This document shows positions 428-30,798 of a DNA stretch of 45,334 bases, piece by piece. Each line of letters opens with the position of its first letter. The stretch's first letter is position 1. Below the pieces are notes generated by a model, which was not told where the DNA came from, did no database searches, and was given only the letters and a program-made list of their open reading frames with translations. The stretch lies in IMG/VR virus record IMGVR_UViG_3300036851_000168, positions 1 through 45,334 of that record, one strand, 5' to 3'. Position numbers and translations under genes: made by a program. Source of the DNA: a virus.

Positions 428-1690
428 CTATGCATCCGTGATGGTAAGGGGAGCGTTGGCAAGGGTAGCGTAAGGGTTAATCTGCGCTTGCATCTCCGCA
501 CGCACCTGAGCTAAGCGTTCACTGTTGCGCCGGCGCATCTCTTCCCGGCATATATCACAGTCGCAGGGCGGCGGTTCAGGCATCGTCTCCGGCGGGTCGT
601 CTGCCTCGTATGGGTCACGGTCAATGTACTCATCGTATTCGTCAGAAGCTACGACGTTCCATCCGTTCCTCCGCAACGACGGTCGGTTCCCACGCGCAAC
701 ATTCTCAAGCCTTACATACGCCTCCTCGTCCTCACCGTGTAGTCGAGTCAGCTCGGCCCAAGAAGGCTGCCACTGTTTTCCATCGAAGGTTTGCCAGAAA
801 CGCTGGACGAACCCCTGTCTATTGCGCTCGGGCAACACGCTCTGCACCTTATTGAGGAAGTGTGCCGCTGCTGTCCTGCCCTTCGCTTCTGACTTAGTGC
901 GAGTGTATCGACCGAGAGTACCGCCCTTGCTCTTACTGACCGGCTTCTTCTTCGCTCGCTGCACCATCGCAACTGACAGGTCCACAAGGAACTGCATCTG
1001 CCAGGCCGTGCGCACTACATCCCAGAGCCGGAACTCGACTGTGTTCTGTCGACTAAGCGGCCGGAAGTTGAGTGAGACGTACTTGGTTTCGCCGATAGTG
1101 GTGCTCTGCGGGTCCTCATCGAGTGCGTAAGAGAGCCCGTATCTCGCTTCGTTCTCGGACTCGAAGGCAGAGAACGGCATACAGTAGCGGTAGTTGTTGT
1201 ACTGCCCACGGTGCCGTGGCCCTTGCGATGCAAGTCGGAAGAGCACCGCCTCATTCGAGTACATGAGCCGGGCCAGGTTCGCCAGCTCTCCCCTCGTCAG
1301 GTCACTCGCTTCAACGTGGACATGGAACGAGCATCTGTCGTTAGTGTCGATGGCGGGGGCGCGGTTGAGTACGTCGTCGAGGGTGAAGGTCATGTCTCGC
1401 CAGCGTGGGTCACCCCATGCGATGGGCGCCGTGATTACCTCAGCTCCACAACTTGAGTCGTACTGGACTTTTACTGGGTAGTAGCGATGGTCCTCGTGCA
1501 TCCACCAGTCTTGTCGGTCCCAGCAGAAGTTAGTGCGGCACCAGTCGCACTCGCAGTGGTAGTCGTGCGTGTAGCTTTCGTCGTCGTCATTCCACTTGAG
1601 TCCAGCGCGTGCAAGCCTGTTGTTCAGGTTGCGCAGCCGGCCACTGCCTACCTCTAGCTCGAAGCCGAACCTGCGTTCCTCGATGTTCAC
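428..1690 (-). CDS. Amidoligase-like COOH-NH2 ligase (glutamine-synthetase/GCS fold)
   Basis: A 420-residue protein with the signature of the amidoligase_2 family, enzymes that use ATP to join a carboxylate to an amine. Visible in order are GFELEV (E11, E13), a D-x-S then CGAEVITAP (E84), FHVHV (H123, H125) and TVEFR (E219, R221); the acidic and arginine residues are those that bind metal and ATP in this fold. A cysteine-rich loop (C46, C48, C51, C56) and a second cluster (C376, C378, C381) may bind zinc. The GTG start overlaps the stop of the gene at 1687 (GTGA). It is the last gene of its operon, downstream of a class II amidotransferase and a second amidoligase, which suggests one pathway. 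The substrate is unknown. The C-terminus LTITDA is identical to that of the major capsid protein. Confidence 0.75.
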   Translation of the reverse strand: MNIEERRFGFELEVGSGRLRNLNNRLARAGLKWNDDDESYTHDYHCECDWCRTNFCWDRQDWWMHEDHRYYPVKVQYDSSCGAEVITAPIAWGDPRWRDMTFTLDDVLNRAPAIDTNDRCSFHVHVEASDLTRGELANLARLMYSNEAVLFRLASQGPRHRGQYNNYRYCMPFSAFESENEARYGLSYALDEDPQSTTIGETKYVSLNFRPLSRQNTVEFRLWDVVRTAWQMQFLVDLSVAMVQRAKKKPVSKSKGGTLGRYTRTKSEAKGRTAAAHFLNKVQSVLPERNRQGFVQRFWQTFDGKQWQPSWAELTRLHGEDEEAYVRLENVARGNRPSLRRNGWNVVASDEYDEYIDRDPYEADDPPETMPEPPPCDCDICREEMRRRNSERLAQVRAEMQAQINPYATLANAPLTITDA

Positions 1691-2055
1691 TTCAACACCT
1701 CGTCAACGGCAGCAGCGAGAGCGTCGTCTATCTGTGACTGGGCCTCTTCAGCTTCTTGCTGAATCCCCACAACAGGCACAACCCAGCGTCGGCACTGGTT
1801 CAGCGCATCCCGCATCTGTTCGATGACGCGACGGAGTGAGTCTTGTTTATCCTGCATTCGGTCGATAGTGGCGTCGTAGACCGTCTCGTCAACGTGACAC
1901 TGAGCGCAGTAGCGTTCCTGCTTGCGTATCTCGGCTATCGCTTCGGTGAGAGCAGCCTCAGCCAACGGGTAGCCCTCCCACGCCTTCTTTTGTCCCATCA
2001 AAACGGCGATGCGCCGTTCCTGTTGTTCTCGTTCGAGCCGGTCAGCGATGTTCAG
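1687..2055 (-). CDS. Coiled-coil-like protein, paralogue of gene at 40343; likely CTG start
   Basis: A 122-residue helical, charged protein of unknown function. It is clearly paralogous to the protein at 40343-40702: shared ADR-x-EREQ-x-ER near the N-terminus, AIAEIR, RRVIEQ-x-RDAL and a VLK C-terminus. The first ATG (near 1998) would delete the conserved ADR-EREQ segment. The homologous N-terminus requires a start at or near CTG 2055, which lies 7 bases after GGGAGG and overlaps the upstream stop as CTGA, matching the ATGA/GTGA coupling used elsewhere here. A conserved 34-bp stretch (around 1803-1836 versus 40444-40477) differs at about one base, indicating recent duplication or conversion. 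Confidence 0.7.
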   Translation of the reverse strand: MNIADRLEREQQERRIAVLMGQKKAWEGYPLAEAALTEAIAEIRKQERYCAQCHVDETVYDATIDRMQDKQDSLRRVIEQMRDALNQCRRWVVPVVGIQQEAEEAQSQIDDALAAAVDEVLK

Positions 2056-2222
2056 CTTAGTACCTCCCTTGCTCTGTCCAGAGCAGGTGACGGTCCGAAG
2101 TCACGCTGCTCCGAAGCGAACACCAGGTCACGCAACGCTTCTTGCAACTCCACGACCCTGTTGAGTAGCCAGGTTGTGCCGCTAAGGATTTCAGCGTGAG
2201 CCGTATAGGGCGCCTTCTTCAT
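2052..2222 (-). CDS. Small helical protein, unknown function
   Basis: A 56-residue reading frame starting ATG AAG AAG GCG. It overlaps the upstream 45-residue gene as ATGA and is coupled to the downstream gene through CTGA. The protein is amphipathic and leucine/glutamate-rich (VVELQEALRDLVF), with no recognised domain. Tight packing on both sides is the main evidence that it is real. Confidence 0.55.
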   Translation of the reverse strand: MKKAPYTAHAEILSGTTWLLNRVVELQEALRDLVFASEQRDFGPSPALDRAREVLS

Positions 2223-2356
2223 GGCGTGTACCTCGCAGCTTCAAGTGCTGCAGCTATGCGTTCGAGCGCATCGACTGCACGCCGCCCAAGGTCGAAGCCT
2301 TCCTCTATCTTCTCCTTCGTGTCGCCTAGTCCGAGCAGGTCAGCGAGTGCTTTCAC
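2219..2356 (-). CDS. Small helical protein, unknown function
   Basis: A 45-residue frame whose GTG directly follows the TGA of the amidotransferase gene, and which ends in an ATGA overlap with the next gene. It contains an alanine-rich helix (AVDALERIAAALEAAR). Function not recognised; it may be a small accessory partner of the cassette. Confidence 0.5.
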   Translation of the reverse strand: MKALADLLGLGDTKEKIEEGFDLGRRAVDALERIAAALEAARYTP

Positions 2357-3661
2357 TCAGACCTTCGCTCCTTTCTTCTTGCGCTTGAACAAGTCCACGA
2401 TGGATGCAGCCTCACGTCTAGCCTCTTCCTCTTCGCCACTCAGTGGCCCGGAATGGGTAGTAGTTGCCGGGATTGCGGCACGGACAGTACGCTCGGCGTC
2501 CAACAGCGCATCGCCTCCTGTCGTGCCCAGCCTGGAGCAGTAACGAAAGGGTGGCACCACCGACTCGTTGACGATGAAGCTGCCATCCGAATAGACGTGG
2601 ATGTATCGCTTCTCTTGTGGGTCGGTCGGGTCTAGGTGCGTGCCCTGCCATTGCGAGCCGGGCCTGACCGTGGCGTCGTAGCCCACGTCGGCGATGTTGA
2701 AGGGCAAGGTTTCGCTTGCATTTTCTGGATAATCGGGTGGTAGCCAGCACTTGTCTACTTGGTCCCACATCCACCCGTCTGGGTTCTTCTCGTATCGCTT
2801 GGGGTCACGGTAGATGCGGGACGTGCCCGCCCAATTCATTTCCCATTCGTCTTCGTCCTCCCACTCACAGCCTGGCAGTAGGTACGGAGGGCAGGTAGAG
2901 GTACTGCGGTTCATGCGACCGTAGCTGTAGCTGTTACTCCAGTCGTTGAACTCGAACTTCCCATACTCTTGCTCTATGCCGTCCGAGTAGACACCGTAGT
3001 GCCCCTCCTCGTAATAGAGGATTCCGGTCGAGCCGCTTTCTTTCTTCTTGACGAACCCACCGACCAGCTTCTCGACCGCAGCTAGTGTCTTATACGTGCT
3101 AGCAAACACCCAGCCGTACTTGCACTTAGCGATGTGCAGCGGGGAGTCCTCACCGCGCACCAGGTACAGCACGTTGCGCTCTAGCTCGCTGAGATAACCG
3201 AGGGCATAGCTACCCCATACGTCGGTCATGTCGGTGGGGATGAGTCCGTGCTCGTAGAGGTAAGCGAACACTGCTTCGCTATCGACCTCGGCTTGTCGCT
3301 CTAGCTTGACGTGCTCGGCGAATATCTTGTCGTCGTTCCAGATGTGTCCGTTGTGGACACCGACCACTCGCCGACCATGTTCACCCACCCTGACTGGATG
3401 GTTGTTACGGTTCAGCTTGGGACTTCCTTGTGTTGCGAACCGAGTGTGCAAGATGGCAGTGCTCGTGTGCTTACTCATTCGTACCTTGAACTTCGACGCC
3501 GGGATGGGCGCCTTGTCCAAGCACAGAGCGTTAGGTCCCCACCATGCTGCACCTGTTGCGTCCTTGCCTCTTTCTTCGATGCCCGTGAATAGCATTCTCG
3601 CTAGCTCATTCGCATCGAGCGGGTGTCCTGGTTCCAAACAAAATCCTGCAACTCCGCAGAT
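2357..3661 (-). CDS. Class II glutamine amidotransferase (Ntn hydrolase), apparent ATC start
   Basis: Enzymes of this class release ammonia from glutamine through an N-terminal cysteine exposed after removal of the initiator methionine. The sequence CGVAGF immediately follows codon ATC at 3661-3659, and AAGGAGG stands 5 bases before that ATC. No ATG, GTG or TTG lies just upstream in frame, and the first ordinary start (TTG 3637) would remove the catalytic Cys2. The other family marks are present: HTRFATQG, VGVHNGHI, VDSEAVF and WGSYALGYL. The 434-residue protein has no attached synthase domain; its C-terminal half is tryptophan- and acid-rich and ends in a basic tail (KRKKKGAKV). It lies between two amidoligase genes and probably supplies ammonia to them. 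Confidence 0.8.
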   Translation of the reverse strand: MCGVAGFCLEPGHPLDANELARMLFTGIEERGKDATGAAWWGPNALCLDKAPIPASKFKVRMSKHTSTAILHTRFATQGSPKLNRNNHPVRVGEHGRRVVGVHNGHIWNDDKIFAEHVKLERQAEVDSEAVFAYLYEHGLIPTDMTDVWGSYALGYLSELERNVLYLVRGEDSPLHIAKCKYGWVFASTYKTLAAVEKLVGGFVKKKESGSTGILYYEEGHYGVYSDGIEQEYGKFEFNDWSNSYSYGRMNRSTSTCPPYLLPGCEWEDEDEWEMNWAGTSRIYRDPKRYEKNPDGWMWDQVDKCWLPPDYPENASETLPFNIADVGYDATVRPGSQWQGTHLDPTDPQEKRYIHVYSDGSFIVNESVVPPFRYCSRLGTTGGDALLDAERTVRAAIPATTTHSGPLSGEEEEARREAASIVDLFKRKKKGAKV

Positions 3662-3894
3662 ATGTACCTCCTTGCTCTCGACTGTTACTCGGGTAGAAAA
3701 GGTGAGCGGGGGCTACCCCGCTCAAGTGGAAGGCAGGTGAGCGTGCGCTCATGCCGTCACTCCAAGAGTCGTTCGCTCTCTCGGTTAGCTCCAGGTTCAC
3801 GGCCGAGGGGTTGGAGTCCTCAACCAGTCGGGCGTCACCCAACCAACTGGACCGGGCGCCGGGGTTGGGCGCCGGAGTTACTTCGACTCAGCAG
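3662..3894 (-). promoter_or_regulatory. Structured 5' leader of the amidotransferase gene
   Basis: A 233-bp gene-free stretch between amidoligase 2 and the amidotransferase, the only sizeable gap in this otherwise end-overlapping operon. Minus-strand RNA could form several hairpins (GGCGCC repeats near 3850-3870, CCAGT/ACTGG, GGTTG/CAACC) and then the terminator-like stem at 3696-3723 just before the SD. This arrangement is typical of attenuators and riboswitches. I could not match it to a known class. Confidence 0.45.
3696..3723 (-). terminator. Terminator-like hairpin in the amidotransferase leader
   Basis: On the minus strand, GAGCGGGG (3723-3716) pairs with CCCCGCTC (3711-3704) around a 4-base loop and is followed by ACCTTTTCT. 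It ends about 20 bases upstream of the AAGGAGG of the amidotransferase gene, so it could work as an attenuator. Confidence 0.6.
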
Positions 3895-5013
3895 CTAGGA
3901 GCTACTTGCCCTGCCACTATTGCATTCGTCCCAGCGGGCGTTGAGCCGACGCTTCGCCGCAGCTGGGAGCTTCACTAGGTTCATCAGTGCGTTGAGTTTC
4001 TCTTTGCTATTCGGCGTTCGAGCCAAGCCCTCTATGCTCTTGCGTTTCACTCCGTTGCTGGCGTAGTCCACCATGTGCTCGCACAGTGAGGCCCATGCAA
4101 GAGCTAGCCTGGAGTCTTCGGTGCTACCGAACATCCTGAACTCGAAGGTGTTGTAGCCAGTGCGACCGCAGAGTCCGTTGTTGTGGCTGTTGAAGTCCCA
4201 CCGTGGGAAGGGCTGTCCTTCCTCGGCCAGGTCGAGCATCTTCCTAGTCGCCGCCTGTCTGCTACCGCCGTGGTCGCCCAGCGACCACATCCCGCCGTAG
4301 CCACTGCGACGGCTGGGATACAGGCCGTATAGCGTGCGCTGACACGAGAACCACAGTGCCATGAGGTAATAGCACCGAGCGTCGTCAAGGTCCGAAGCGT
4401 CGACGTGTACGTGCAGTCCGGCTTGTGGTTCTGCCTTGTACCCTGCGCCGATGGCGTTGTGATAGAGCTGGTCTACGTCCTGCTCAAACTCATGTCCATA
4501 GCCAGGGTTAGTGACGAACTCACACCCACTTGGGAAGTACCCATGCAGTGAGCCATCTTCCTTCGCTCCGAACTTGACCGGGATGGAAGGTAGCTCGTCG
4601 GGTCCATTGTCCAGCTCAACCTCAAGCCCGACGCTACGTGGTAGCTTGAGGAAAGCTGCTGTGTCTACGCAGCCTTTCGTGTGCTCCTCGCTCGGGTCGG
4701 TTATGTCTCCATACCGACCACCGCAGTTGTGACAATCGCCGCATTCCGTGCCGCAGGTTTCGCAACCGCAACCACCGCAGTAGTCATAGTGGTTGTCCCT
4801 GCATGAGTAGCACCAAAGGTCGAAGTCATCACGCCAGTCAGGACATGGACTGTTAGCGTGTTCGGCACGACAAGCGTGGCACCAGTCCCTTTGGTAGCCA
4901 GAGGATTCGAGGCAGTCGAAGGAGTTGCCACACTCCTCGCATCCGCACTCACCGCATAGCTCGTGCTCTTCTTCTTCTACTTCAACTGCCACTGCCGTGG
5001 TACTAGGCGGCAC
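3895..5013 (-). CDS. Second amidoligase-like ligase with cysteine-rich zinc-binding N-terminus
   Basis: A 372-residue protein in two parts. Residues 20-115 hold many CxxC and CGxCGC units (for example CGECGCEECG), consistent with several zinc sites. Residues 127-330 carry the amidoligase signature: VGLEVEL (E131, E133), KEDGSL (D153), SGCEFVTNP (E165), LHVHVD (H201, H203) and TFEFRMFG (E291, R293). The GTG start follows AGAGGAG by 6 bases. It is only weakly similar to the 428-1690 protein outside the motifs, so the two probably act on different substrates or steps. A likely role is ATP-dependent amide bond formation, with the cysteine-rich region recruiting a protein or nucleic acid. Confidence 0.75.
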   Translation of the reverse strand: MPPSTTAVAVEVEEEEHELCGECGCEECGNSFDCLESSGYQRDWCHACRAEHANSPCPDWRDDFDLWCYSCRDNHYDYCGGCGCETCGTECGDCHNCGGRYGDITDPSEEHTKGCVDTAAFLKLPRSVGLEVELDNGPDELPSIPVKFGAKEDGSLHGYFPSGCEFVTNPGYGHEFEQDVDQLYHNAIGAGYKAEPQAGLHVHVDASDLDDARCYYLMALWFSCQRTLYGLYPSRRSGYGGMWSLGDHGGSRQAATRKMLDLAEEGQPFPRWDFNSHNNGLCGRTGYNTFEFRMFGSTEDSRLALAWASLCEHMVDYASNGVKRKSIEGLARTPNSKEKLNALMNLVKLPAAAKRRLNARWDECNSGRASSS

Positions 5014-5016
5014 GGT

Positions 5017-5178
5017 TCACTCCTCTGTTACCTCCTCGTGTAGGGCGTGGTACAAGTCATGCGCCGCAACTTGAGCAGCGTTGTCGTTCTTGAACCAATC
5101 GTCGTTCGTTGTGCGATTGGCCTTGTGCTCGGCGTCGTGCCAATTGCGCAGCAGTCTTGCGAATGTAAGCTCATCCAT
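5017..5178 (-). CDS. Small acidic/histidine-rich protein, unknown
   Basis: A 53-residue frame starting ATG GAT GAG after an AGGACAGG purine stretch, overlapping the upstream gene end by 8 bases. It ends EEVTEE just before the GTG of amidoligase 2. Contains RNWHDAEHKAN and HDLYHALHEE, which look helical. No domain recognised. Confidence 0.6.
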   Translation of the reverse strand: MDELTFARLLRNWHDAEHKANRTTNDDWFKNDNAAQVAAHDLYHALHEEVTEE

Positions 5179-5357: not shown

Positions 5358-5729
5358 TCAGAGCTGCTCTTCGATGATGTCGGCTATCTGCTCGAACGTG
5401 TAGCCGTCATCGTTGCAGCCAGCGAGCGTGTTGTGCTCACCGGCAACCTCGACATGGAAATCACAGAGAGCGAGGAGAGGGTCCCCCACGGCCCATATCG
5501 CTACGGGTTCCGGTAGGTATGCTACTTGTCCCTCGCATTGTAGGTTTGCCTTGTTGCCCAGCGCCCAGTCCTCAACCACTCCGTCCTTGATGGCTAGGTC
5601 GGTGAGCACGCCGAGGCAGCAGAACCTATGGTTACCGTCGGTGTCTAGGTTGTGCAGTGCTCCTTCCCCCTGCCTGTACTCGCCACTGCGTAGAGCAGCG
5701 ACCCACTTGCGCTTTACCTCTGGGTTAAT
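5358..5729 (-). CDS. Conserved phage protein (WVAALRSGEYRQG family), probable ATT start
   Basis: A 123-residue protein resembling a common phage hypothetical family with KWVAALRSG-x-Y-x-QG, FCCLGVL-x-DLA, LPEPVAIWA and a terminal FEQIADIIEE; its function is unknown. AAGGAGG stands 5 bases before codon ATT at 5729, which is followed by AACCCAGAGGTA, giving the usual short N-terminus before the family motif. The ATT overlaps the upstream TAA (ATTAA). The alternative GTG at 5744 lies upstream of that SD and has none of its own, so ATT is favoured. Confidence 0.7.
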   Translation of the reverse strand: MNPEVKRKWVAALRSGEYRQGEGALHNLDTDGNHRFCCLGVLTDLAIKDGVVEDWALGNKANLQCEGQVAYLPEPVAIWAVGDPLLALCDFHVEVAGEHNTLAGCNDDGYTFEQIADIIEEQL

Positions 5730-5898
5730 GTTGTCCTCCTTCACGTAGCTGTCGCCTTACCTCGGTGGCGACTGGTTCAAGCCAACGCAACGCTATGCTT
5801 ATGCCCTCACTCATGTTCTCAAGGGTGCGTTGCGTCTGTAGCAAAACCTCTGCATTTTCCTGCGAAAGTTGCACAGTTTCTTGCGAGTTGTTAGACAT
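5725..5898 (-). CDS. Small helical protein, unknown
   Basis: A 57-residue frame starting ATG TCT AAC, overlapping the upstream gene end by 8 bases and ending within the coupled ATTAA of the next gene. It is glutamine/glutamate-rich and probably one long helix (ETVQLSQENAEVLLQTQRT). Function not recognised. Confidence 0.6.
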   Translation of the reverse strand: MSNNSQETVQLSQENAEVLLQTQRTLENMSEGISIALRWLEPVATEVRRQLREGGQH

Positions 5899-6271
5899 CT
5901 AGGTCGTCCGCAAGTTCGTCGGCAACGAGTGCAAATAATAGAGCGGCGCCCCACTTAACACCTGAGTCTTGCGTGTGCTGGAACTCTCGGAAAGCGGCGT
6001 ATGCACCCCGCTCTAGGGCATAGCCATTCTCGTGCAGCACCGGAGAGGCGTCGTCCATGCTCGAACCTAAGCCGTAGTCGTCCATCTGCTTGAGTATGGA
6101 CAGTGGGACGCCCAGCTTGGACAGTGCTAGGCCCACGCCGCAGCTAGGCGCTTCGTTGTGTACGTAGAGGCACGCCCCGCCGTCGAGGAGTTGATACACG
6201 TAGTCCTCTCCACGCTCGGCCACTGCTTCACGCAGTGCACGGATGGCGTCCTCCTTGGTGATGAACTGCAC
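5891..6271 (-). CDS. Conserved phage hypothetical protein
   Basis: A 126-residue acidic protein. GTG 6271 directly follows the upstream TAG. The segment APSCGVGLALSKLGVPL resembles a motif seen in many actinophage hypothetical proteins (PSC-x-VG-x-AL). There is no catalytic signature that I recognise. It sits in the middle of the small-gene operon. Confidence 0.7.
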   Translation of the reverse strand: MQFITKEDAIRALREAVAERGEDYVYQLLDGGACLYVHNEAPSCGVGLALSKLGVPLSILKQMDDYGLGSSMDDASPVLHENGYALERGAYAAFREFQHTQDSGVKWGAALLFALVADELADDLDV

Positions 6272-6505
6272 CTACCAAACCTCCTTCATCACAGACTGGA
6301 ACTCCGCAAGCGTCTCGTTCGTCCAGCCACCGTCATGCTCGACCTGCCATATCAAGTCGCGCATTGCTTTCTTGACCTCGGCTTCCGCCTTCCAGCGTGC
6401 GAGGTTGTCCTTGAACCGGGCTCGGCTCTCGGCTCGGCACGAGCGGCAGTACTTCGACTTACCCACGGTGGACCCGTGGCTTGTGTCTGTTGCGCACAGC
6501 TTCAC
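6272..6505 (-). CDS. Small protein with CxxC, unknown
   Basis: A 77-residue protein from GTG 6505, chosen because AAAGGAG precedes it by 5 bases and GTGA overlaps the upstream stop. C4 and YCRSCRAES may form a zinc site, followed by a charged helical C-terminus (WTNETLAEFQSVMKEVW). The zinc-finger-like start suggests nucleic acid or protein binding; function unknown. Confidence 0.65.
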   Translation of the reverse strand: MKLCATDTSHGSTVGKSKYCRSCRAESRARFKDNLARWKAEAEVKKAMRDLIWQVEHDGGWTNETLAEFQSVMKEVW

Positions 6506-6654
6506 GCTGGCTCCTTTCCTAGTTCGTCCGGGTTCTCGGACGTATAGACGGGGACCTCCCCGCACAACCCGCACTTACGCACTGGATAGCCGATGGCTAT
6601 GACCCATGCCCTGCAACAGCGAGCGACTGCATAGTGCAGCTCTGGCTCAGGCAT
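6502..6654 (-). CDS. Small zinc-ribbon-like protein
   Basis: A 50-residue frame starting ATG CCT GAG CCA, overlapping the preceding gene by 8 bases and coupled by GTGA to the next. It carries two cysteines at RCC and KCGLCGE, so up to four cysteines could bind a metal. Function not recognised. Confidence 0.6.
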   Translation of the reverse strand: MPEPELHYAVARCCRAWVIAIGYPVRKCGLCGEVPVYTSENPDELGKEPA

Positions 6655-13698: not shown

Positions 13699-15459
13699 AT
13701 GCCAGAGCAGATGTATGAACAAGGTTCCAGTTTTGACGTAGAGAAAGAGGTTGAGAAGTTTCTTTCTCTTAAGCGCAGTCAGTACTACATAGTACGCAAT
13801 TTCAATTACTTCCTACTGCGCGAGGCAATGGAAGGTCGGTTCCGCTGGCCGGCCGAATGGCCCAAGCACAAACCCAAGCTCATCTACAACCTCGTGAAGC
13901 GCATCTCGATGCGCTACTCCTCGCTCCTGACGGGCAAGGGGTTCCAGGTGCAGGTGCCCGTGCTGGCGCCGAACGACATGGACCTGCGGCTGCGTAGTCA
14001 GGGGGTTGAGAAGCTCTGTTACCGGTTCATCGAAAAGAGCGGGGACTTCTCTACTTTCTCACTCGGCTCCCAAGACGGCAGCCTTCTTGGCAACACAGTC
14101 TTCAAGACATACATCGACCAGAAGACGAAGTGGCCATCTTTCTCGCAGTGTATCCCGGACTACTTCTACGGCATCTCGTCTTCAGTCAACTATGCCGGCG
14201 AGCTGGCCAAGGTGTTCTACACCTACAAGATTGACATCGACGAGGCCCGCGAGCTGTACGGCAACCTGGACTTCAAGGGCGACATGGACTACACGCGCGA
14301 CATCTACCTGTCTAAGGAGATGCTCAACCAGTCCACGCAGGAGAAGGAGCGCCAAGTTCCTTGCCTAGAGGTCTGGACCAAAGACAACTACATGCTCAAG
14401 GTCGGCAATGCAGTCGTGTACAACGGCGCCAACCCCTACGGCTTCGTCCCCTTCGTGTCCATTCCGAACATCCGTAAGACGGGCCGCGTCGAGGGTCTAA
14501 GCGATGTCGACGATGTACTCCCAGTCAATGAGGAGCTGAACCAGATGCTCAGCCACCGCGCCTACGTGGTGCGTCGCTGGCTCAATCCAACGCTCATTTG
14601 GGAGGGTGCGCCCAAGGACTACGCGGCAATCATTCAGAAGATTGTCGGTGGCGGGGGCGTCATCCCGACACGACTTGGAGCGAAGCTCAATTTCCTTGCC
14701 CTCAATGGCCAAGGACCAGACGTAATAGAGATGCTGGAGCGCCTGCGTCTCATCGCCCTAGAGAACGCGAACATGAACGACCTCGCGCTCTCAGGCAACG
14801 TGCAGGGGTCCATTAACACTGGACAGTCACTCGACCGAATGCTCATCTCCATCATCACCACACTGGAGGAGAAGCACCGAAATTGGGAGCGTGGCTTGAA
14901 GAAACTATTCGGCCAGCTGCTCACACTCTCTACTCACGAGGAAGCAGCAAAGGAATACGGAGAGGTCCAGGTTAACGCGGACAAGAAGTCGGCTGAGGGA
15001 GGCGGCATCCTCACTCTTGACGGCGAGTTGGTCGGCGACATCCGCGACGTGAAGGTTATCTGGCCTGGCACTTTGGCACGCGACGACGCAGCAAGCGTCT
15101 CGCTGGAGCTGCAGAAGTATCAGGCCGGCGTGCAGTCTCTCTACACCACGCTGGAGAACCTCGGAGTCGACTTCCCAGACGACGAGATTGAGAAGATTGC
15201 ATCCGAGCGCAGTGACCCGCGGCTCGCTCCGAAGGAGCAGGCTTCCCTGCTCAAGGCCGCAAGCCCGCTACTGGCGCAGGAGCAACAGGCACAGCAGGAG
15301 CAGCTTCCGCCGGAGGCTTTCGAGAATCCGGAGGAAGAGGCACAGCTTGCGCTTGAGGAGGAGGAGTCGGCGCCTAAGCGCCGCCGTCGCAAACGAGCTG
15401 AGCCTACTGAGCCCGAGGTAACCTTCGATAACTCTGACGAACCTAGCCTGGCTGTCTAA
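13699..15459 (+). CDS. Portal protein
   Basis: A 586-residue protein directly downstream of the terminase block, with the length and composition of SPP1 gp6-type portals. Typical pieces include KPKLIYNLVKRISMRYSSLL near the N-terminus, a TVFKTYID beta region, and the helical ENANMNDLALSGNVQGSINTG section. The last ~90 residues are glutamine/glutamate-rich then basic (APKRRRRKR). A dodecameric portal is the DNA channel and the docking site for terminase and tail. Confidence 0.85.
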   Translation: MPEQMYEQGSSFDVEKEVEKFLSLKRSQYYIVRNFNYFLLREAMEGRFRWPAEWPKHKPKLIYNLVKRISMRYSSLLTGKGFQVQVPVLAPNDMDLRLRSQGVEKLCYRFIEKSGDFSTFSLGSQDGSLLGNTVFKTYIDQKTKWPSFSQCIPDYFYGISSSVNYAGELAKVFYTYKIDIDEARELYGNLDFKGDMDYTRDIYLSKEMLNQSTQEKERQVPCLEVWTKDNYMLKVGNAVVYNGANPYGFVPFVSIPNIRKTGRVEGLSDVDDVLPVNEELNQMLSHRAYVVRRWLNPTLIWEGAPKDYAAIIQKIVGGGGVIPTRLGAKLNFLALNGQGPDVIEMLERLRLIALENANMNDLALSGNVQGSINTGQSLDRMLISIITTLEEKHRNWERGLKKLFGQLLTLSTHEEAAKEYGEVQVNADKKSAEGGGILTLDGELVGDIRDVKVIWPGTLARDDAASVSLELQKYQAGVQSLYTTLENLGVDFPDDEIEKIASERSDPRLAPKEQASLLKAASPLLAQEQQAQQEQLPPEAFENPEEEAQLALEEEESAPKRRRRKRAEPTEPEVTFDNSDEPSLAV

Positions 15460-18400
15460 TGCCGGTTCTTGACCCAGACAAGGCACTTCTTCAGCCGGTA
15501 ATAGCGCCGCCGAAGAAGCCTAAGAAGAAAAAGAAAAAGCCCGCTCTCATCGCGCCGCTTGGTGCAGGCAAGCTCAAGCTTGAGATGGAGCGCGAGCTTC
15601 GCGCTCAGCAAAGTCTTCTCAAGAGGAAGGCTGAACTGCAAGCGCGCGCTCAGCGCGCCAAGGCTGAGGCGCTCTTCGAGAAGTCCGAGCGCGCCAAGTA
15701 TCTCAAGGGCCAGGCCGGACTCCAGAAGCAGCTTCTCGCTGCGCGTGGAGTCGGTGGTCAGATAGCCAAAGAATACGTCGAAGAAGCGCGGTCGGCCATC
15801 GCCGGCACGCGCAGCAAGTACGTTCAGGATAAGCAGACTCGCGAGTTTGTTAGCGAGCTGACGAAGCTCAGCTCTACCAACCCCTCCCTTGCGGGCAAGG
15901 ATGCTGAGAAGGTATTCCTCTCGCTCTCCGATGCGGAGAAGCTGGCTATTGTGCTGCGGCATCCTGCTGCGTTCCCTGAGCTAACCCGCGAAGCTCTGAA
16001 GGCGCAGGCGGCGTACGAGAAGGCAAAGCGCGAAGCCGCAAAGAAGCCGGGCATCGGGCAGAAAATTCTGGGCGCAATCGGTAAGGTGCTCGGCCCACTC
16101 GACAAGCCGCGCTCTTTGCTGGGGCAGGCTGAAGCTGCCGAGAAACTGGCAAAGGCAGTGCGAGAGCGGAAGACGACAGTTGAGAAACTGTGGGCTCGGC
16201 TCTCTCCCGACGAACAGGCTGACTACGTCCTGCGCATTGCTCGCTTCCCCGAGGGCGAGGGGTACCTGCGCACCATCTTTGGTGCCAATCGGAACCGTGA
16301 GCGCATCAAGAAGTACCTTGCCACCCGCTCGGGTGAGTTCCTTCGGGGCCTGCAACGGCGGGACAACTTCCGAACGCATGAGGGTTCTCTTGGCGGTGAC
16401 TTCTACTCAAAGCTCGCCCAGAGCCAGGAGCGTCGTGACAAGCTCGGCAAGGAACTGGGCTTCGTTGTTCGACACGACACAGGCATCACGCAGTTCGCTC
16501 TTGACCCCACTCTCTACCTTCCCTCGCTTGGCGCCCTGCGCACCATCAACACGGCGGCTAAGAGTGAGAAGTTTCTTCAGGTCGGAGGTAGACGAGCACT
16601 AGAGCGCATCGCTGCGAAGGTTGCGCTAATTGGCGAGAACGCAGCCAAGATTGCCGAGCGCTTCAAGCTGCCAGTCGAGCTTGCAGAGAAGGTCGCACTC
16701 GCAGCCGGCGACACTGAACGAGTTGTCGCTCTTCTCGCCGAGGAGCTGGGCAAGACTTGGACCCCAACCGTAACACGGCGCAGTATCGCTGCGCTGCGTC
16801 CAGCGCTCAAGGAGCAGGGTCTACTCAAGCGTGGCCTGGAGACTGCAGCTGCTCCACGCCTCACTGAAGCCGCGACCAAGAACGTACAGAAGGCGCTAAC
16901 CCTTGGCGCCCAGAACAAACTGCGCGCACAGCTCGCCAAGGGTCAAGCGAGGATTGCCAATATCAATTCGCGTCTCGCCAAGAAGGAAGCGCAGCTCAAG
17001 CGGCTTACACCCGCTCGACAGACTCGCGCAGTGCGCTTGCGTCAGGACATTGTTGGATTGCGCCTACAGCGCAAGGGGCTTTCCAAGCAAGCGACGAAAC
17101 TGGACAAGGCGCTTCGAGCCGGGCGCATTGTTGAGAAGCAGGTCATCCAGAAAGCTGAGCGCCGGGGGCTTCGGTCTGTTACCGGGCAAGGAGCAGCCCG
17201 CCTTGCGCGCGCGCCCCTGGCCTTCATTGAGAAGGCCACTCCAGGCAAGTTCAAGCACGAGCTGAAAGACCAGGCAGCTGACGCGGTGCGTCGGTACACG
17301 CGCGGCTTGGGCCTGGGTCACGACATCGTTGACGGCATCACGAACCGGGTTATCAAGGCCGGCACAATCGACGACGCAGAGAGCGCAGTCGCCGAGGCAG
17401 TGCGCCATTACGCAGCGAAGGCCGGGCTCGACAGTACTCAGTCGGCCCAGCTCCTCGCGTTTATGAAGTCGGCCAAGGACGAGTTCGACCGAGCGTTTAA
17501 GGCTCGGCTCTACGGCATCAAGGGCGAGGCTGCTCCCCTCGCCCGCACTCAGCTTCGTAACGAAATCCTGCTCCCCGATAAGGGCGACCTGGACCGCGCC
17601 ATCAAGCAGATTAGGTCTGGTCGCGCTGTTACCGGGCGAGCAGGACTAGCAGTACGCGGTCTGAAGGCCGGACACCGACTGTGGAAGTTTGGAGTGGTGA
17701 CTGGCCCAGCCTTCGGTATCGGCCTGGCCGGCTCTATCCCTGGCGCCGCCATCGGCGCAACCATCGGCGTCATCAAGCATGCTGTACCAGGCGCCGTCAA
17801 GGCTGCGCTCAAGGGCGACCTCGACCACCTGCTCCTCGGCATACAGCGCACCAAGAGTTCCCTTCTGAAGGGCGCTGCTGGTGGCGCGCACATCGGCGCC
17901 AGCGTCGGCGGGCTCCAGTATTCCCTGCGCGTGGCGGTTATCGAGGAGACGTTCGGCCGTAGCTTTGCAGTCCATGGTATTACCCGCTCGGTAATAGAAC
18001 GCCTTCCCTTCGGCCTTGGCCCGAAAATCTTGTGGAAGGGACTTAACGAGAACCAGCGCAAGATTGCAGTCAACACGGTGCGCATGTTGCGACACGCGGT
18101 CAGGGCCAACCCAGAGAACGACTGGGCACTGCACGCTTTCCTGACGAAGGCCAGTAAGAGCACGCTTATCGAGCAGGGAGACAGGCGGTTCCTCGACGCC
18201 TGGTATCACGTCATCAACTATCAGCTACATCAGTCCGACGATGTGATTCGCCATCTAATGGCGGGCCGGTTCGGCGACAGTCGAATTGCAGTCGGCGAAA
18301 CAGGCGAAGCCATCGTGGAAGCCACGAGTCGAGAGGCAGCACAAGCTGCCGCTATCCGTTGGCTGGAGCACGACCCTCGCGGCAAGGTCTACCTGCGCGA

Positions 18401-21400
18401 CATGATTGAAGCTGGACGTGCCAAGAATGCCAAGCAGCTCGTGGACAATGCACAAACCCTCATTGACGAGGTAGTCACACACCCCGCCATCGTCAAGGCG
18501 TGGCAGGCCGGCCCCGTTGATAAGGGAGAGCTGCGCGCACTCATCGCCAAGGGTGCAGCACCCCAACGCATTCATGCCTTGGACCGGCGCACGTTGAACC
18601 CGCTCAACCCCAAGGACTTGCAAGAGGTTGTGTCCCGCTCTGTTCTCCAAGCTCCGACCAATGTGGGACGGGAAGGTTTCTTCCTTGGAGAGTTCACCGA
18701 CCACTACAAGTCCCTGCTCGACGGCGGCATGGACCCCAGCCTCGCCGCCCAGATTGCCGGCCGGCGAGCCGTCGAGCGCACGAACGAAATCATGTTCTCA
18801 CTGGATGGGATGAGTCGCTTTGCCAAGAAGGCTGACTACGTTTTTCCGTTCCAGCAGGTGCGTGAGGAGCTGTTTAGGGTCTACGGAAAGATTGCGCTGG
18901 ATAACCCACTGCGCACCATGCGCCTATACAAAGCAGCGAAGACTGGCTTCGACATCGGTGTCGAAGAGGGATGGATTTACAAGGACCAGTACGGCGAGTA
19001 CGTAGTTACCATCCCCGGCTCTGCGGCTCTAACGCGCCTACTGACTGGACGTGCTATCGCCAAGACGTTACCTCTGTCGCGCCTATCGTTCATCGGACAG
19101 GGCGCATTCGGCATCGGAGTTATCCCCACCCCCGGTGGTCCGTACTTCAGCGCAGGGGCCTCGGTGGTACTGCGCGCGTTCCCGGACCTATTCCCAAAGA
19201 ACGACACCGTGGCCAAGTGGCTGTTCCCATTCGGAGCTAGCGGCTACATCGGCCGAGAGAACGTGCGGCAGATTATCGCTGGTATCCAGCCTGGTTTCGG
19301 GGGGGCATTCTACGAAGTGGTCGGCAAGGACAACCAGCGCGACCAGCTCTACCGCCTAGCGCACCGCGTGTACTCCGCGATGTACGTGGACTGGAAAGAG
19401 GGACATGGCCCTGAGCCCACACTCGAAGCAGTAAAAGATGCGGTGAAGAAACTGACTTTCGCCTCGGGCATTCTCGGCGCCATTGTTCCCGGAGGCGGAC
19501 AATTCCTCATCCCCGAGGAGGAGCGCTTCTATAACGACATCGCGCCAGCCTTTAGGGATGCAAGCGGCCGGTTGGATATAGCCGCCTTGCTTGAAGAGTT
19601 CCCGCAATATCAGCCCTACCTCACGTCCAAGGGCAAGTACATCGGACCTGAGAAGTACTGGCAGCAGCCCGGGCTTCCACGTGAGGCAATGTCAGAAGCC
19701 GACAAGTTCAAGAGCAAGCTCAATACCAAGGTGTTCTCGCCTGAGGAGTTCGCCGCTGAGATTAAGCGGTCGCAGCAGTTGTCCCTCGCATTCAAGGACT
19801 TTTACGAGAGCACCTTTGACCCGACTGACGTGCGCGGCGTGTTCGAGCGCCAGGATGCCGTGCTTCGCCGGCATCCCGAGCTGCGGCACTTCTTCGACAC
19901 TCGCTACCAGATGGAATTGCAGTACATCAAAATCCGCCGGCTCAATGACCCTAAAGAACAGGACCGCCTACTCAAAGAGTGGCGCTTCCGATGGAAGGAC
20001 CAGGACGGCGGCTGGAGTAAGAGTGCTGAGGAGAAGCTGTCCTTCCGTTACGTCCGTGGAGTTCTCGACCCGGAGGGACTGTGGAATGCAGCTCGTGATG
20101 CAGACGAGCTGGACAGAATGTGGCGTGACCAGAAGTCTCGTCATTCGGACCTCTCGCTGCGGCAGTTTGCCTCGCGCTTGAGCGCGTCGGAAGCCATCAA
20201 GTTCCTTCGTCGCAGGGAGCGTGATGCGGAGACGCTCGACGAGTACTTCCGCATTCACAAGCTCATCAGCGAAACCTACGACAACCATCCCGAGCTGCTG
20301 GCCCCGCGCAAGATTGACCCGCTGCGTGACTCGTACGAACAGAAGCTTGCACGAGAGCTGTCTGCAAAAACGTCGGACTTCTACGAGGACATGGCCAAGC
20401 TGCAAACGCGCGTGGACCAAATCAAGAAACAGATGGATGCAGCTGCACAGTCCAAGAACTGGACGCTCTATTACTCTCTGAAGGACCGGCGCACGAAGGC
20501 GTACGACCAGATACGCATTCTCAAGAACGCCGTGTACCACAAGTACCAGGACTGGCCACTCATCGCAGACACGCTGAAGGAAGGCTGGTACGACGAAGGG
20601 CTGACCACCTTCCACATCAAGGAGCTGGAGAAGCAGGGCCTTGGCTGGCTTGCCATCGCCCCGGAAGAGAAGCAGTGGCAGAACATGACCGAGCTGCTTC
20701 GTGACGAGTACCTCAAGGACTTGACTGGCCGGCTGTCTCAGCCTGCCTTCTCAAAGGGCAAGCTCTACTGGGAGTGGCTGACAGACTTCCAGAAGGACCT
20801 GCTCCAGGGACAGTACGGCTACGACAAGGCGAAGCAGTGGGCTCTGCGCTCGGCAGCCGACGATGCAGCAGCGCGCAAGCGCGGAGGAATGTTCTCCGTT
20901 GCCGAAGGCGAGATTGCTTTCGCTATGGCGATGTTCAACCAGTACTCCAAACGGCCTCGCGGTGCTCGGCCCCCGGCCGCATACAAGCAGTACCTCTCGT
21001 TACCGGACAACCGGGCCGTCCGGTTCGCATTCCTGCAACAGCACCCGGAAGTACAACGGTGGCTACAGCTCGGGCCGATGGCACAGATGCCGGTGCTTCT
21101 TCGCAACCTGGTCGCCAACATAATGATTAAGCACGGCAAGTGGCAGGGTGAGGGCCGCACCATCGACGAGATAACAGAAGTTTCGTTCGCACAGCTGCAG
21201 CTGCAGAAGTGGACAAAGCGTCGACCAGGAGAGCGTCCACCGGCCACGTTCGACCTGTGGCTCAACATGCCGACTGGACCCGGTAAGGCTGCCTACCTAC
21301 GCAAGCATCCAGAGATTCAGGACTGGTTGTCGCGAGGGCCGATGTCCAACATGCCCGACAACCTCAAGGACGTGGTGCGAGAAATCCTTGTCAACTACGG

Positions 21401-21833
21401 GGTGTTCACTGAGAAGTCTGACCCGCTCTCCAAGCTCATCGGTGAGTACTCGAAGTTGCCGGCCTCAGCTAAGGCCGTGTTCCTGGCTCAGCACCCAGAG
21501 CTGGTGGAGTACTGGCGCGCACTACGTCCGCCTGAGGAGAGGCCGCTATTCGACCTGGCCTCGCGGTACTTCGCTATCGACGACACTGCAGCGAAGCGCA
21601 TGTTCCTCGAAGTCCACCCGGAGCTGAAGGATTACTTCATCCGGGAGCGGGAGCGCCGCTACGAGCGCTTCCTGAACCGAGTGAGCTTTTACCTAGGGGC
21701 AAACCCAGAGCTAATCAACGGCTACCTGTCGGAGCAGACCCGCATCCTGAGCGCCTTGCTCGACAAGTTTGGTGAGCGTCCTCTTCTGCCGGAGAAGTTC
21801 GTCACCCGCAGCCGCTCCCGCCGCGCCGCATAG
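15459..21833 (+). CDS. Giant internal virion (ejection) protein, 2,124 residues
   Basis: The largest gene, starting ATG 15459 as the portal gene ends. The N-terminal ~200 residues are lysine/alanine-rich (PKKPKKKKKK). Glycine/alanine-rich segments that could insert in membranes occur around residues 745-780 (GIGLAGSIPGAAIGATIG) and 800-830. A region near 1110-1200 (FAKKADYVFPFQQVREELF) is followed by another glycine-rich part. The C-terminal third has repeated HPE(L/V/I) units (four between about residues 1855 and 2060). Size and position fit ejection proteins of short-tailed phages, which leave the head with the DNA and form a conduit. No lytic transglycosylase or polymerase motif was seen. 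Confidence 0.75.
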   Translation: MPVLDPDKALLQPVIAPPKKPKKKKKKPALIAPLGAGKLKLEMERELRAQQSLLKRKAELQARAQRAKAEALFEKSERAKYLKGQAGLQKQLLAARGVGGQIAKEYVEEARSAIAGTRSKYVQDKQTREFVSELTKLSSTNPSLAGKDAEKVFLSLSDAEKLAIVLRHPAAFPELTREALKAQAAYEKAKREAAKKPGIGQKILGAIGKVLGPLDKPRSLLGQAEAAEKLAKAVRERKTTVEKLWARLSPDEQADYVLRIARFPEGEGYLRTIFGANRNRERIKKYLATRSGEFLRGLQRRDNFRTHEGSLGGDFYSKLAQSQERRDKLGKELGFVVRHDTGITQFALDPTLYLPSLGALRTINTAAKSEKFLQVGGRRALERIAAKVALIGENAAKIAERFKLPVELAEKVALAAGDTERVVALLAEELGKTWTPTVTRRSIAALRPALKEQGLLKRGLETAAAPRLTEAATKNVQKALTLGAQNKLRAQLAKGQARIANINSRLAKKEAQLKRLTPARQTRAVRLRQDIVGLRLQRKGLSKQATKLDKALRAGRIVEKQVIQKAERRGLRSVTGQGAARLARAPLAFIEKATPGKFKHELKDQAADAVRRYTRGLGLGHDIVDGITNRVIKAGTIDDAESAVAEAVRHYAAKAGLDSTQSAQLLAFMKSAKDEFDRAFKARLYGIKGEAAPLARTQLRNEILLPDKGDLDRAIKQIRSGRAVTGRAGLAVRGLKAGHRLWKFGVVTGPAFGIGLAGSIPGAAIGATIGVIKHAVPGAVKAALKGDLDHLLLGIQRTKSSLLKGAAGGAHIGASVGGLQYSLRVAVIEETFGRSFAVHGITRSVIERLPFGLGPKILWKGLNENQRKIAVNTVRMLRHAVRANPENDWALHAFLTKASKSTLIEQGDRRFLDAWYHVINYQLHQSDDVIRHLMAGRFGDSRIAVGETGEAIVEATSREAAQAAAIRWLEHDPRGKVYLRDMIEAGRAKNAKQLVDNAQTLIDEVVTHPAIVKAWQAGPVDKGELRALIAKGAAPQRIHALDRRTLNPLNPKDLQEVVSRSVLQAPTNVGREGFFLGEFTDHYKSLLDGGMDPSLAAQIAGRRAVERTNEIMFSLDGMSRFAKKADYVFPFQQVREELFRVYGKIALDNPLRTMRLYKAAKTGFDIGVEEGWIYKDQYGEYVVTIPGSAALTRLLTGRAIAKTLPLSRLSFIGQGAFGIGVIPTPGGPYFSAGASVVLRAFPDLFPKNDTVAKWLFPFGASGYIGRENVRQIIAGIQPGFGGAFYEVVGKDNQRDQLYRLAHRVYSAMYVDWKEGHGPEPTLEAVKDAVKKLTFASGILGAIVPGGGQFLIPEEERFYNDIAPAFRDASGRLDIAALLEEFPQYQPYLTSKGKYIGPEKYWQQPGLPREAMSEADKFKSKLNTKVFSPEEFAAEIKRSQQLSLAFKDFYESTFDPTDVRGVFERQDAVLRRHPELRHFFDTRYQMELQYIKIRRLNDPKEQDRLLKEWRFRWKDQDGGWSKSAEEKLSFRYVRGVLDPEGLWNAARDADELDRMWRDQKSRHSDLSLRQFASRLSASEAIKFLRRRERDAETLDEYFRIHKLISETYDNHPELLAPRKIDPLRDSYEQKLARELSAKTSDFYEDMAKLQTRVDQIKKQMDAAAQSKNWTLYYSLKDRRTKAYDQIRILKNAVYHKYQDWPLIADTLKEGWYDEGLTTFHIKELEKQGLGWLAIAPEEKQWQNMTELLRDEYLKDLTGRLSQPAFSKGKLYWEWLTDFQKDLLQGQYGYDKAKQWALRSAADDAAARKRGGMFSVAEGEIAFAMAMFNQYSKRPRGARPPAAYKQYLSLPDNRAVRFAFLQQHPEVQRWLQLGPMAQMPVLLRNLVANIMIKHGKWQGEGRTIDEITEVSFAQLQLQKWTKRRPGERPPATFDLWLNMPTGPGKAAYLRKHPEIQDWLSRGPMSNMPDNLKDVVREILVNYGVFTEKSDPLSKLIGEYSKLPASAKAVFLAQHPELVEYWRALRPPEERPLFDLASRYFAIDDTAAKRMFLEVHPELKDYFIRERERRYERFLNRVSFYLGANPELINGYLSEQTRILSALLDKFGERPLLPEKFVTRSRSRRAA

Positions 21834-22637: not shown

Positions 22638-23744
22638 ATGGCAGTCCAGCCTAGTACCCCTATGGGTACGTACAACCAAACGGTTGGCGTCAAGCTGTCG
22701 ATGGATGACGCAATCTTCATCCTGACCCCGAGCGACGTTCCGCTTCAACAGAAGCTTGGTTCCGAGCCGGTGGACCAGAAGAAGATTGAGTGGCTCGAAG
22801 AGGACCTGACCCCGCAAGAGGTTACGGTCAACGCCACGTCAGCGCTCGGTTCGAGCACCATCGTCCTTGTCGCCGACGACGGCTCCAAGGTGCGCGTCGA
22901 CGACGTGCTTATGAAGAAGGACGGCACCGTCCAGGCACTCGTCACCGCCATCGCGACTGACACCCTCACCGTTACCCGGCCGTTTGCCGGTTCGACGGAT
23001 GAGGCGCTAGCCGCAAACGACATTCTCCACATCATCGGTCAGTACCGTGTTGAAGGTTCGGACCCACTCGCGGGTCGCTTCGTGGACCGCACCACGGCGT
23101 ACAACATGACGCAGATTGACCAGGAGAAGGTCGAGGTCACTCGTACCGAGAAGAAGCGCGCTCAGTACGGCGTGTCCGACCCGTACGACCACGAGGTCCA
23201 GAAGAAGTTCAAGGAACTGGCCATCCGCTACGAGCGTCGCCTCATCAATGGCCGGCGTGTCGAGTCGGGGGACCTCAAGCAGCGAGCCATGGGTGGCTTC
23301 TTCTATTACGTCACCACGAACTCGCGTTCCAACACCAAGGCCAACATCGAAACCGCTCTGAACGACATACTCCAGGACTGCTACACGCAGGGTGGGGCTC
23401 CGACGTGGCTTGTCGTTAGCCCAGCTATCGCCCGCGTTATCAGCGCCCTGAACGCTTCGCGCATCACGTACCCGGACTCGGGCGCTGGTTCCAAGCGTGG
23501 TCAGGTTGTTGAGCGTTTCCTCTCCGACTTCGGCGAGGTTGGCATCACCATCGACCGGCACCTGCCCAAGACCAAGGCGCTGGTCGTTCAGCCTGACTAC
23601 TTCAAGGTCAGCAACTTCGACGACTACTTCCACGAACTGCTCGCCAAGACTGGCGACGCGGAGAAGGGTGAAATCGTCGCTGAGAAGTCGTGCAAGGTCA
23701 AGAACCAGAAGGCACACGGCGTTCTCACCATCACCGACGCCTAA
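22638..23744 (+). CDS. Major capsid protein (SU10-type HK97 fold)
   Basis: A 368-residue protein following the scaffold gene, preceded by AAAGGTAACAGACCACA. It begins MAVQPSTPMGTYNQTVG and contains PLQQKLGSEPVDQKKIEWLEED, EKKRAQYGVSDPYDHEVQKK, FKELAIRYERRLINGRR and RGQVVERFLSDFGEVGITID, which match my recollection of the SU10 major head protein family. Codons are strongly GC-ending, as in a highly expressed gene. It ends HGVLTITDA; the last six residues equal the C-terminus of the amidoligase at 428-1690. A strong hairpin follows at 23766. Confidence 0.85.
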   Translation: MAVQPSTPMGTYNQTVGVKLSMDDAIFILTPSDVPLQQKLGSEPVDQKKIEWLEEDLTPQEVTVNATSALGSSTIVLVADDGSKVRVDDVLMKKDGTVQALVTAIATDTLTVTRPFAGSTDEALAANDILHIIGQYRVEGSDPLAGRFVDRTTAYNMTQIDQEKVEVTRTEKKRAQYGVSDPYDHEVQKKFKELAIRYERRLINGRRVESGDLKQRAMGGFFYYVTTNSRSNTKANIETALNDILQDCYTQGGAPTWLVVSPAIARVISALNASRITYPDSGAGSKRGQVVERFLSDFGEVGITIDRHLPKTKALVVQPDYFKVSNFDDYFHELLAKTGDAEKGEIVAEKSCKVKNQKAHGVLTITDA

Positions 23745-29653: not shown

Positions 29654-30298
29654 ATGCCTTTTGTTGTTGTCTCGCGCTCAAGCTGGGGCGCGAAGCCTCC
29701 TAAATCCAAGGTGCCCATGACGGGCGCCAAGGCAGACGTGTTCATCCATCACACGGCCGGGTTGGCAGGTCCGGCTGACAAAGAAGCGGCCATCATGCGC
29801 GAACTACAACAGTCAGCCTTCAATGAGAACTACCGAGACATCGAGTACCACTTCGTTGTTTTCCCAAGCGGGAACGTCTACGAAGGGCGCGGATGGGGAC
29901 TTGAGGGTGGCGCAACGCGCGACCACAACACGGACTCGTACGCCATCAGCCATGCCGGTAACTATCAGAGCGAGGGAGTGAGCCAGGCGCAGATTGAGGT
30001 CACGCGCTGGCTCATCGCCGAGGGACAGAAGAAAGGCTTCATCGCGAAATCGCCCATCATCCGTGGACACCGCGACGTGAACGCGACTGTATGTCCCGGC
30101 TCACATTTGTATGCACGTCTGCCCGACATCCGTAAGCCATGGCTAGCTCAGTTCCCGTCGTATCGCATCACGCATAAGAGCGGCAGTAGTGGCGTCATTA
30201 ACCCTCCCGCTCCAGGCCAGTCGGCGTTTCCGATAACAGTCAAGCGCATGGAGGAAATCCTCCGAGACGAGGGCTGGGTTAAGGGCGAGCGACTCTAG
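29654..30298 (+). CDS. N-acetylmuramoyl-L-alanine amidase (endolysin)
   Basis: A 214-residue amidase_2/PGRP-type zinc enzyme that cleaves the peptide from N-acetylmuramic acid in peptidoglycan. Motifs: VFIHHTAG (zinc His near 32/33), YHFVVFPSGNVYEGRGW, and RGHRDVNATVCPGSHLY (zinc ligands His139 and Cys147). The catalytic domain fills residues 1-165; the C-terminal ~50 residues (RMEEILRDEGWVKGE) may form a small binding helix. No signal peptide is seen, so release by a holin is expected; a holin-like gene is encoded on the opposite strand at 32691. Confidence 0.88.
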   Translation: MPFVVVSRSSWGAKPPKSKVPMTGAKADVFIHHTAGLAGPADKEAAIMRELQQSAFNENYRDIEYHFVVFPSGNVYEGRGWGLEGGATRDHNTDSYAISHAGNYQSEGVSQAQIEVTRWLIAEGQKKGFIAKSPIIRGHRDVNATVCPGSHLYARLPDIRKPWLAQFPSYRITHKSGSSGVINPPAPGQSAFPITVKRMEEILRDEGWVKGERL

Positions 30299-30798
30299 TG
30301 CGGCGCGCCACCTGGCGGCTCGCACTAGCCGCCCTGGTGGTGGTCGCAGTCTCATGGCCGCAGGCAACCACGGTTAGTGACGCACTCTCACCGGGCGCGA
30401 TAGAGAACTGCTTCGCATCGAGTATTAACTACGAGCGCCGGCACGCTGGAGTGAAGGAGCTGCCGCGTCTTGCCTCGCAGGACTCAGCAGCACGCACGCA
30501 CTCCAGCGCGATGGCGCGGAAAAGCACCATCTTTCACAGTACCCCGGACGGAACGTGGGGCGGCGAGAACGTCGGGATGGGACCCGACTGTCCGAGCATC
30601 CACAATGCGTTCATGGCATCTGCTGGTCACAAGTCCAACATCTTGGACAAGGACTGGGCTGGCATGGGGGTTGGTGTCGTCGTAAGAGATGACACCGTGT
30701 ACGTAACGGAACGCTTCACCTACCCGAGGAGTAATAGTGCCCCGCGACCCACGCCATCGCCGAAACTTCGGCGGAAGGATTCGTGCTCAAGAACTTGA
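30298..30798 (+). CDS. Secreted CAP-superfamily protein
   Basis: A 166-residue protein from GTG 30298. Residues 1-28 form a signal peptide (basic start, then LALAALVVVAVSWPQA). The rest matches the CAP/SCP fold: NYERRHAGVKELPRLASQDSAA, FHSTPDGTWGGENVG and SAGHKSNILDKDWAGMGVGV, with the family histidine and glutamate. CAP proteins are exported and of varied or unknown biochemical role. Next to the endolysin it could aid wall binding or alter the infected cell surface. The last 62 bases overlap the next gene. Confidence 0.78.
   Translation: MRRATWRLALAALVVVAVSWPQATTVSDALSPGAIENCFASSINYERRHAGVKELPRLASQDSAARTHSSAMARKSTIFHSTPDGTWGGENVGMGPDCPSIHNAFMASAGHKSNILDKDWAGMGVGVVVRDDTVYVTERFTYPRSNSAPRPTPSPKLRRKDSCSRT

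Follow-up and report, generated by a model that had tools for sequence, protein, structure and literature searches.

Ligases and amidotransferase at the locus

The stretch of DNA analyzed here (hereafter, the window) is the 45,334-nucleotide IMG/VR virus record IMGVR_UViG_3300036851_000168, and the subject of the analysis is a minus-strand gene string at positions 428–5013, which encodes two putative amidoligases, referred to as ligases A and B, and a standalone class II glutamine amidotransferase (GAT). In the order of transcription, the string consists of ligase B, a 233-nt gap, the GAT, three small open reading frames (ORFs) and ligase A. From the GAT onward, the genes abut or overlap by 4 bases, with the single exception of a 50-base gap. 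An earlier note, made from the sequence alone, had placed the ligases and the GAT in one operon; the three genes do lie together, and the string also includes the small ORFs and the gap. The features are as follows:

3895–5013, minus strand: ligase B, PF12224 amidoligase with a Cys-rich N-terminus (372 amino acids, GTG start)
3662–3894, minus strand: apparently non-coding 233-nt gap that separates ligase B from the GAT and contains strong hairpins
2357–3661, minus strand: predicted standalone class II GAT (434 amino acids, putative ATC start at 3659–3661)
2219–2356, minus strand: small ORF of 45 amino acids, directly past the GAT stop
2052–2222, minus strand: small ORF of 56 amino acids in the interval from the GAT to ligase A; it shares 4 bases with the neighboring ORF
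1687–2001, minus strand: small ORF of 104 amino acids, the stop of which overlaps the GTG start of ligase A by 4 bases
428–1690, minus strand: ligase A, PF12224 amidoligase (420 amino acids, GTG start)

Profile searches assigned both ligases to PF12224 (Amidoligase_2; curated Pfam cut-off, 22 bits), with ligase A over the cut-off (50.9 bits; E-value, 2.6e-13) and ligase B barely over it (24.9 bits; E-value, 2.3e-5). Ligase B also matches phrog_2443 (E-value, 1.5e-10), and both proteins match PHROG amidoligase families. The PF12224 model gave no matches across 14 control genomes. A match of ligase A to the YbdK/GCS2 model (E-value, 7.7e-4) was under the cut-off. No match was obtained by tblastn of each ligase against named phages, PDB sequence searches returned no credible ligase relative, and IMG/VR searches that took each of the three proteins as a single query sequence gave no match, the relatives being reached only through alignments.

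A 47-row alignment of phage relatives (positions are given in open-frame numbering, a few residues off the ORF numbering) revealed that both ligases retain the ExE (E15/E17 in ligase A, E132/E134 in ligase B), H-x-H (H127/H129 and H202/H204, respectively) and E-x-R (E223/R225 and E292/R294, respectively) motifs, as well as D-x-S/T and G-x-E. Among the 38 relatives from viral contigs, ExE, one His and ExR are invariant or nearly so, and further Gly, Asp, Glu, His and Asn positions are present in at least 90% of the sequences. For both ligases, the core is confidently predicted in the AlphaFold (AF2) models, which were built from alignments of 38 and 34 rows; for ligase B, the predicted local distance difference test (pLDDT) score is mostly >90 at residues 160–230 and 290–360. 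The best Foldseek matches of the ligase B model are the YbdK family (best PDB match, 1tt4/1r8g; E-value, 1.5e-5), glutamine synthetases and Dop, and those of the ligase A model are type III glutamine synthetase, YbdK, Dop and PafA; glutamate–cysteine ligase (GCL) is also among the matches. Based on the profiles and the models, ligases A and B are predicted amidoligases of the glutamine synthetase/glutamylcysteine synthetase (GS/GCS) fold with the metal–ATP residues retained. The assignment of the earlier note thus stands: neither protein falls outside this fold, and the ATP and metal residues are kept across homologues.

The N-terminal 116 residues of ligase B contain 18 Cys, mostly in CxxC pairs (Cys-rich span, residues 20–115), and the first 115 residues have pLDDT values <50 in the AF2 model. 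The multi-zinc N-terminus of the earlier note is therefore real as a Cys-rich region, which may bind zinc. Ligase A has a small Cys-rich insert (CECDWCRTNFC, residues 46–56) and a C-terminal CDCDIC. Cys-rich N-terminal extensions are also found in the phage amidoligases of loci L012 (5395–7038, 27 Cys) and L057 (4197–5816, 11 Cys), and Cys-rich inserts in those of L044, L048 and L052, which suggests that such a region is a recurring, putatively metal-binding add-on of phage amidoligases.

The protein encoded between the ligases matches GATase_6 (PF13522; E-value, 2.6e-13), phrog_14519 (E-value, 3.8e-28) and PF13537. In ten aligned GAT sequences, C2, R74, T77, N104, G105 and D127 are invariant, and these correspond to glutamine-site residues of GlmS. 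Judged by these matches and residues, the protein between the ligases belongs to the class II GATs, as had been noted earlier, provided that translation begins at an ATC codon. The ORF with an ordinary start (TTG at 3637) would be without the catalytic Cys, and the frame is open back to 3712. The upstream end reads AAGGAGG-TACAT-ATC-TGC-GGA, i.e., a ribosome-binding site, five bases, ATC and then the Cys codon; the Cys is encoded and invariant, and occupies position 2 only if translation starts at ATC. We infer a start at 3659–3661, because the AAGGAGG ribosome-binding site is in place and the homologues begin with MCG. The codon in front of the catalytic Cys is ATG in 24, GTG in one and ATC in two of 27 distinct phage GATs, the two ATC cases being the window and L054 (at about 6001), which are preceded by good ribosome-binding sites and share 31% identity. 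A sequencing error is possible, yet less likely because the two cases come from unrelated contigs.

The region 3640–3900 has a predicted RNA folding energy of −107.1 kcal/mol (z-score of −2.7 against shuffled sequences). Several hairpins lie within 3662–3894, one of them terminator-like (3703–3724), just upstream of the ribosome-binding site of the GAT. No similar sequence was found for the 233-nt gap in related loci. A glutamine riboswitch was considered for the gap and dropped, as there was no Rfam match. The 104-amino-acid ORF has no family match above cut-off in Pfam or PHROG, and nothing identifiable was found for the 56- and 45-amino-acid ORFs in whole-set family scans of the window ORFs. 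The 4-base overlap of the 104-amino-acid ORF with ligase A is consistent with translational coupling.

Occurrence of the module in other viral genomes

For comparison of gene neighborhoods, GAT genes were counted by profile search over all fetched loci, with overlapping and duplicate contigs counted as they came. A PF12224 ligase lies upstream on the same strand in 108 of the 118 GAT genes, and at most 700 bases away in 102 of them; since the loci were gathered partly via the GAT itself, these counts describe how often linkage occurs where a GAT of this clade is present. Pfam searches of whole records likewise found PF12224 in 27 of 30 GAT-bearing records. Locus L015, in which the GAT and the PF12224 ligase are divergent (3899–5140, minus strand, and 5515–6591, plus strand, respectively), was the only such case seen.

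The fuller known module comprises gamma-glutamylcyclotransferase (GGCT, PF06094), a PF14395 COOH-NH2 ligase, a PF12224 ligase, the GAT and an ATP-grasp protein, in cassettes of five to seven genes. GGCT was detected in 11 of the 29 records searched, and ATP-grasp follows the GAT in L053, L054, L060, L061, L062 and L063. The order in L063, the contig of which was binned in a metagenome-assembled genome of the actinobacterial Microthrixaceae, is GGCT, a weak second ligase match, PF12224 ligase, GAT and ATP-grasp. Two PF14395 ligases are present in G040 and G041, which are two of the three GAT records without PF12224, and G047 and G049 have one PF12224 and one PF14395 ligase each, the PF14395 match of G049 being below cut-off. 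The two-ligase slot is thus filled in three ways among the relatives (PF12224 with PF12224, PF12224 with PF14395, or PF14395 with PF14395), suggesting that a GAT may in many cases require two ligases.

A GAT flanked by PF12224 ligases on both sides was found only in the window and in L061 (IMGVR_UViG_3300003375_000055), among about 119 loci. L061 has the same order and strand, PF12224–GAT–PF12224, but differs in having an ATP-grasp gene before the second ligase. Moreover, the two ligases of L061 are sisters (support, 100/99), unlike those of the window, which are unpaired in the tree; both window branches are long and pairing was not rejected (p-AU, 0.48). In the whole window record, neither PF14395 nor GGCT (PF06094) had a match, and no ATP-grasp was found in the window with Pfam and a profile of the ATP-grasp of the module, although a divergent one could escape detection.

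According to the literature considered here, UFV-P2 and other LUZ24-like phages carry a fuller module with COOH-NH2 ligase, PF12224, GATase_6 and ATP-grasp (PMC3890496, PMC11945000), and the ligase/GAT combination of LUZ24-like phages is also described in PMC3517423. A "peptidoglycan modification" cassette with two amidoligases is reported for RIO1-like, phiEco32 and LUZ24-like phages (PMC5498523), the amidoligase/GAT combination for OM43 phages (PMC10580990), and an amidoligase with GGCT for Clostridium prophages (PMC11318856). The window resembles the peptidoglycan modification cassette of tailed phages in having PF12224, a GATase_6 GAT and two ligases, but differs in having a second PF12224 ligase and none of PF14395, GGCT and ATP-grasp. 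It also resembles Arthrobacter phages Wheelbite (gp93–94) and Ottawa (gp65–66), in which a ligase and a GAT are adjacent on the same strand in that order (33–37% identity for the GAT, 23–27% for the ligases); the Arthrobacter pair, however, has one ligase, a GGCT upstream and no Cys-rich N-terminus.

Based on these comparisons, the trio represents a module that many phages carry, here in a reduced form with two ligases that is rarely seen. The earlier note had regarded the combination as unusual in a phage, which holds for two PF12224 ligases with one GAT, whereas the ligase–GAT pairing itself is common (Arthrobacter, LUZ24-like, RIO-1-like and OM43 phages, and >100 IMG/VR loci). What remains distinctive is the PF12224 pair, together with the other module genes being undetected.

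Proposed function and alternatives

Sequences and models provide the fold class, the catalytic residues, the gene order and the linkage; the chemistry is derived from knowledge of the protein families. It is highly probable that the module consists of amide-forming, ATP-dependent ligases with a glutaminase partner. The GAT would hydrolyze glutamine at its N-terminal Cys and supply ammonia, while each PF12224 ligase, with its GS/glutamate–cysteine ligase-type metal–ATP site, would convert a carboxylate to an acyl phosphate, which would be joined to ammonia or an amino compound to give an amide. Ligase B, in the upstream position that is conserved among phages, is the most likely partner of the GAT, which may serve ligase A too. 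The two related ligases might each take a different position of a single substrate; alternatively, one could amidate and the other join an amino acid. A new infection-related amide modification, in which one glutaminase feeds two PF12224 ligases that act serially on one substrate recruited by the Cys-rich domain of ligase B, is improbable.

Regarding the target and benefit of the module, only weak suggestions can be offered. Given amide-forming ligases with a glutaminase partner, an envelope target has a slightly better than even chance. The most likely target would be a host-envelope carboxylate, e.g., D-glutamate or diaminopimelate of a peptidoglycan precursor, and its change during infection could impair how other phages, or hydrolases of the cell itself, act on it. 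The window trio has a functional analogue in MurT–GatD, also a ligase with a glutamine amidotransferase; the two systems are not homologous, as GatD is a class I GAT and MurT a Mur ligase, with folds different from those of the window enzymes. MurT–GatD amidates peptidoglycan glutamate (PMC3267633). The envelope is favored because of this analogy and of published inference: phage papers credit the idea of wall modification and superinfection exclusion to Iyer et al. 2009 and Hardies et al. 2013, and PMC10580990 cites the former for cell-wall change and superinfection exclusion. The wall-modification proposal of the earlier note had thus already been published as a hypothesis.

Taken as a whole, the reading of the trio as a reduced two-ligase form of the phage amidoligase/GAT module, most likely directed at the envelope, is put forward tentatively, its chances falling just short of even. 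Several observations weigh against it. The TM-scores to YbdK are low (0.37–0.40), so that structural support reaches the fold class only; the GAT needs a rare ATC start, and its expression is thus presumed; and with GGCT, PF14395 and ATP-grasp undetected, this phage cannot have the whole of the published three-linkage pathway. In addition, the portions of the literature considered contain neither substrate evidence nor biochemical proof, and the wall hypothesis there is comparative only. Many phages carry the module, but these sources yielded no experiment that addressed its substrate; two ligases and a GAT are a smaller set to express than the cassettes of five to seven genes, and could help to settle the product of the module.

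Among the alternatives, modification of proteins is unlikely, albeit the best placed. The ligases would couple an amino compound or a peptide to carboxylates in the side chains of proteins from the host or the phage, in a manner similar to the structurally related PafA and its Pup; the target would be picked by the Cys-rich N-terminus of ligase B. The Foldseek matches of ligase A to Dop and PafA and of ligase B to Dop fit this possibility, and a separate Cys-rich domain, as also present in L012 and L057, would suit target recognition. However, the matches to YbdK and glutamine synthetase are of equal or better quality, neither a Pup-like partner nor a match to a Pup-ligase family was found, and the GAT partner indicates ammonia transfer rather than peptide conjugation.

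Slightly less likely still is a small diffusible product, such as an amidated amino acid, a gamma-glutamyl compound or a short peptide, instead of a change to a polymer. YbdK-type ligases use free amino acids as substrates, a point of family knowledge that agrees with such a product, as does the occurrence of PF06094 GGCT, which acts on gamma-glutamyl compounds, beside the ligase or the GAT in many relatives; PMC10580990 cites a secondary-metabolite suggestion for phage Marvin. The window phage, however, yielded neither a GGCT nor a transporter nor any additional biosynthetic enzyme.

It is quite improbable that the GAT-like protein is an amidase stripping groups off the same target rather than an ammonia feeder. 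Class II GATs belong to the Ntn hydrolases, and the GAT of the module is listed with degradation genes in PMC5498523, but the invariance of the residues that bind free glutamine in GlmS-type domains (R74, T77, N104, G105, D127) and the tight ligase–GAT linkage argue for ammonia supply. A role in modifying phage DNA bases or nucleotides, to which the nucleotide-metabolism genes of the phage (NT5C and dGTP_diPhyd_N families) might point, is very remote, as the scanned window ORFs gave no thymidylate-synthase-like, hydroxylase, QueC/QueD/QueE or PurZ match.

Genome context

The first and last 127 bases of the 45,334-base record are an exact repeat, and the window therefore probably represents one complete phage genome of 45,207 bases. 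Recognized phage genes include those for portal, major head protein, head maturation protease, endolysin, Rz-like spanin, holin, DnaB helicase and primase. The phage had been described as lytic in the earlier note, which is not established: no integrase was found in the window, yet a Cro/C1-type helix-turn-helix protein is present.

A 2124-amino-acid ORF (15459–21833, plus strand) without a Pfam or PHROG match is located between the portal and head genes, and a CAP-domain (SCP/PR1-like) protein (30298–30798, plus strand) adjoins the endolysin. The primase (38832–39896, minus strand) has a TOTE-type archaeo-eukaryotic primase domain (PF22548) and shares a gene string with the DnaB-like helicase. 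The major head protein (22638–23744, plus strand) has distant kin in Sporosarcina and Bacillus phages and in many Pseudomonas phages. Two of the records matched by this protein carry the name Bruynoghevirus, which is the LUZ24 group, and this group also has the ligase/GAT module.

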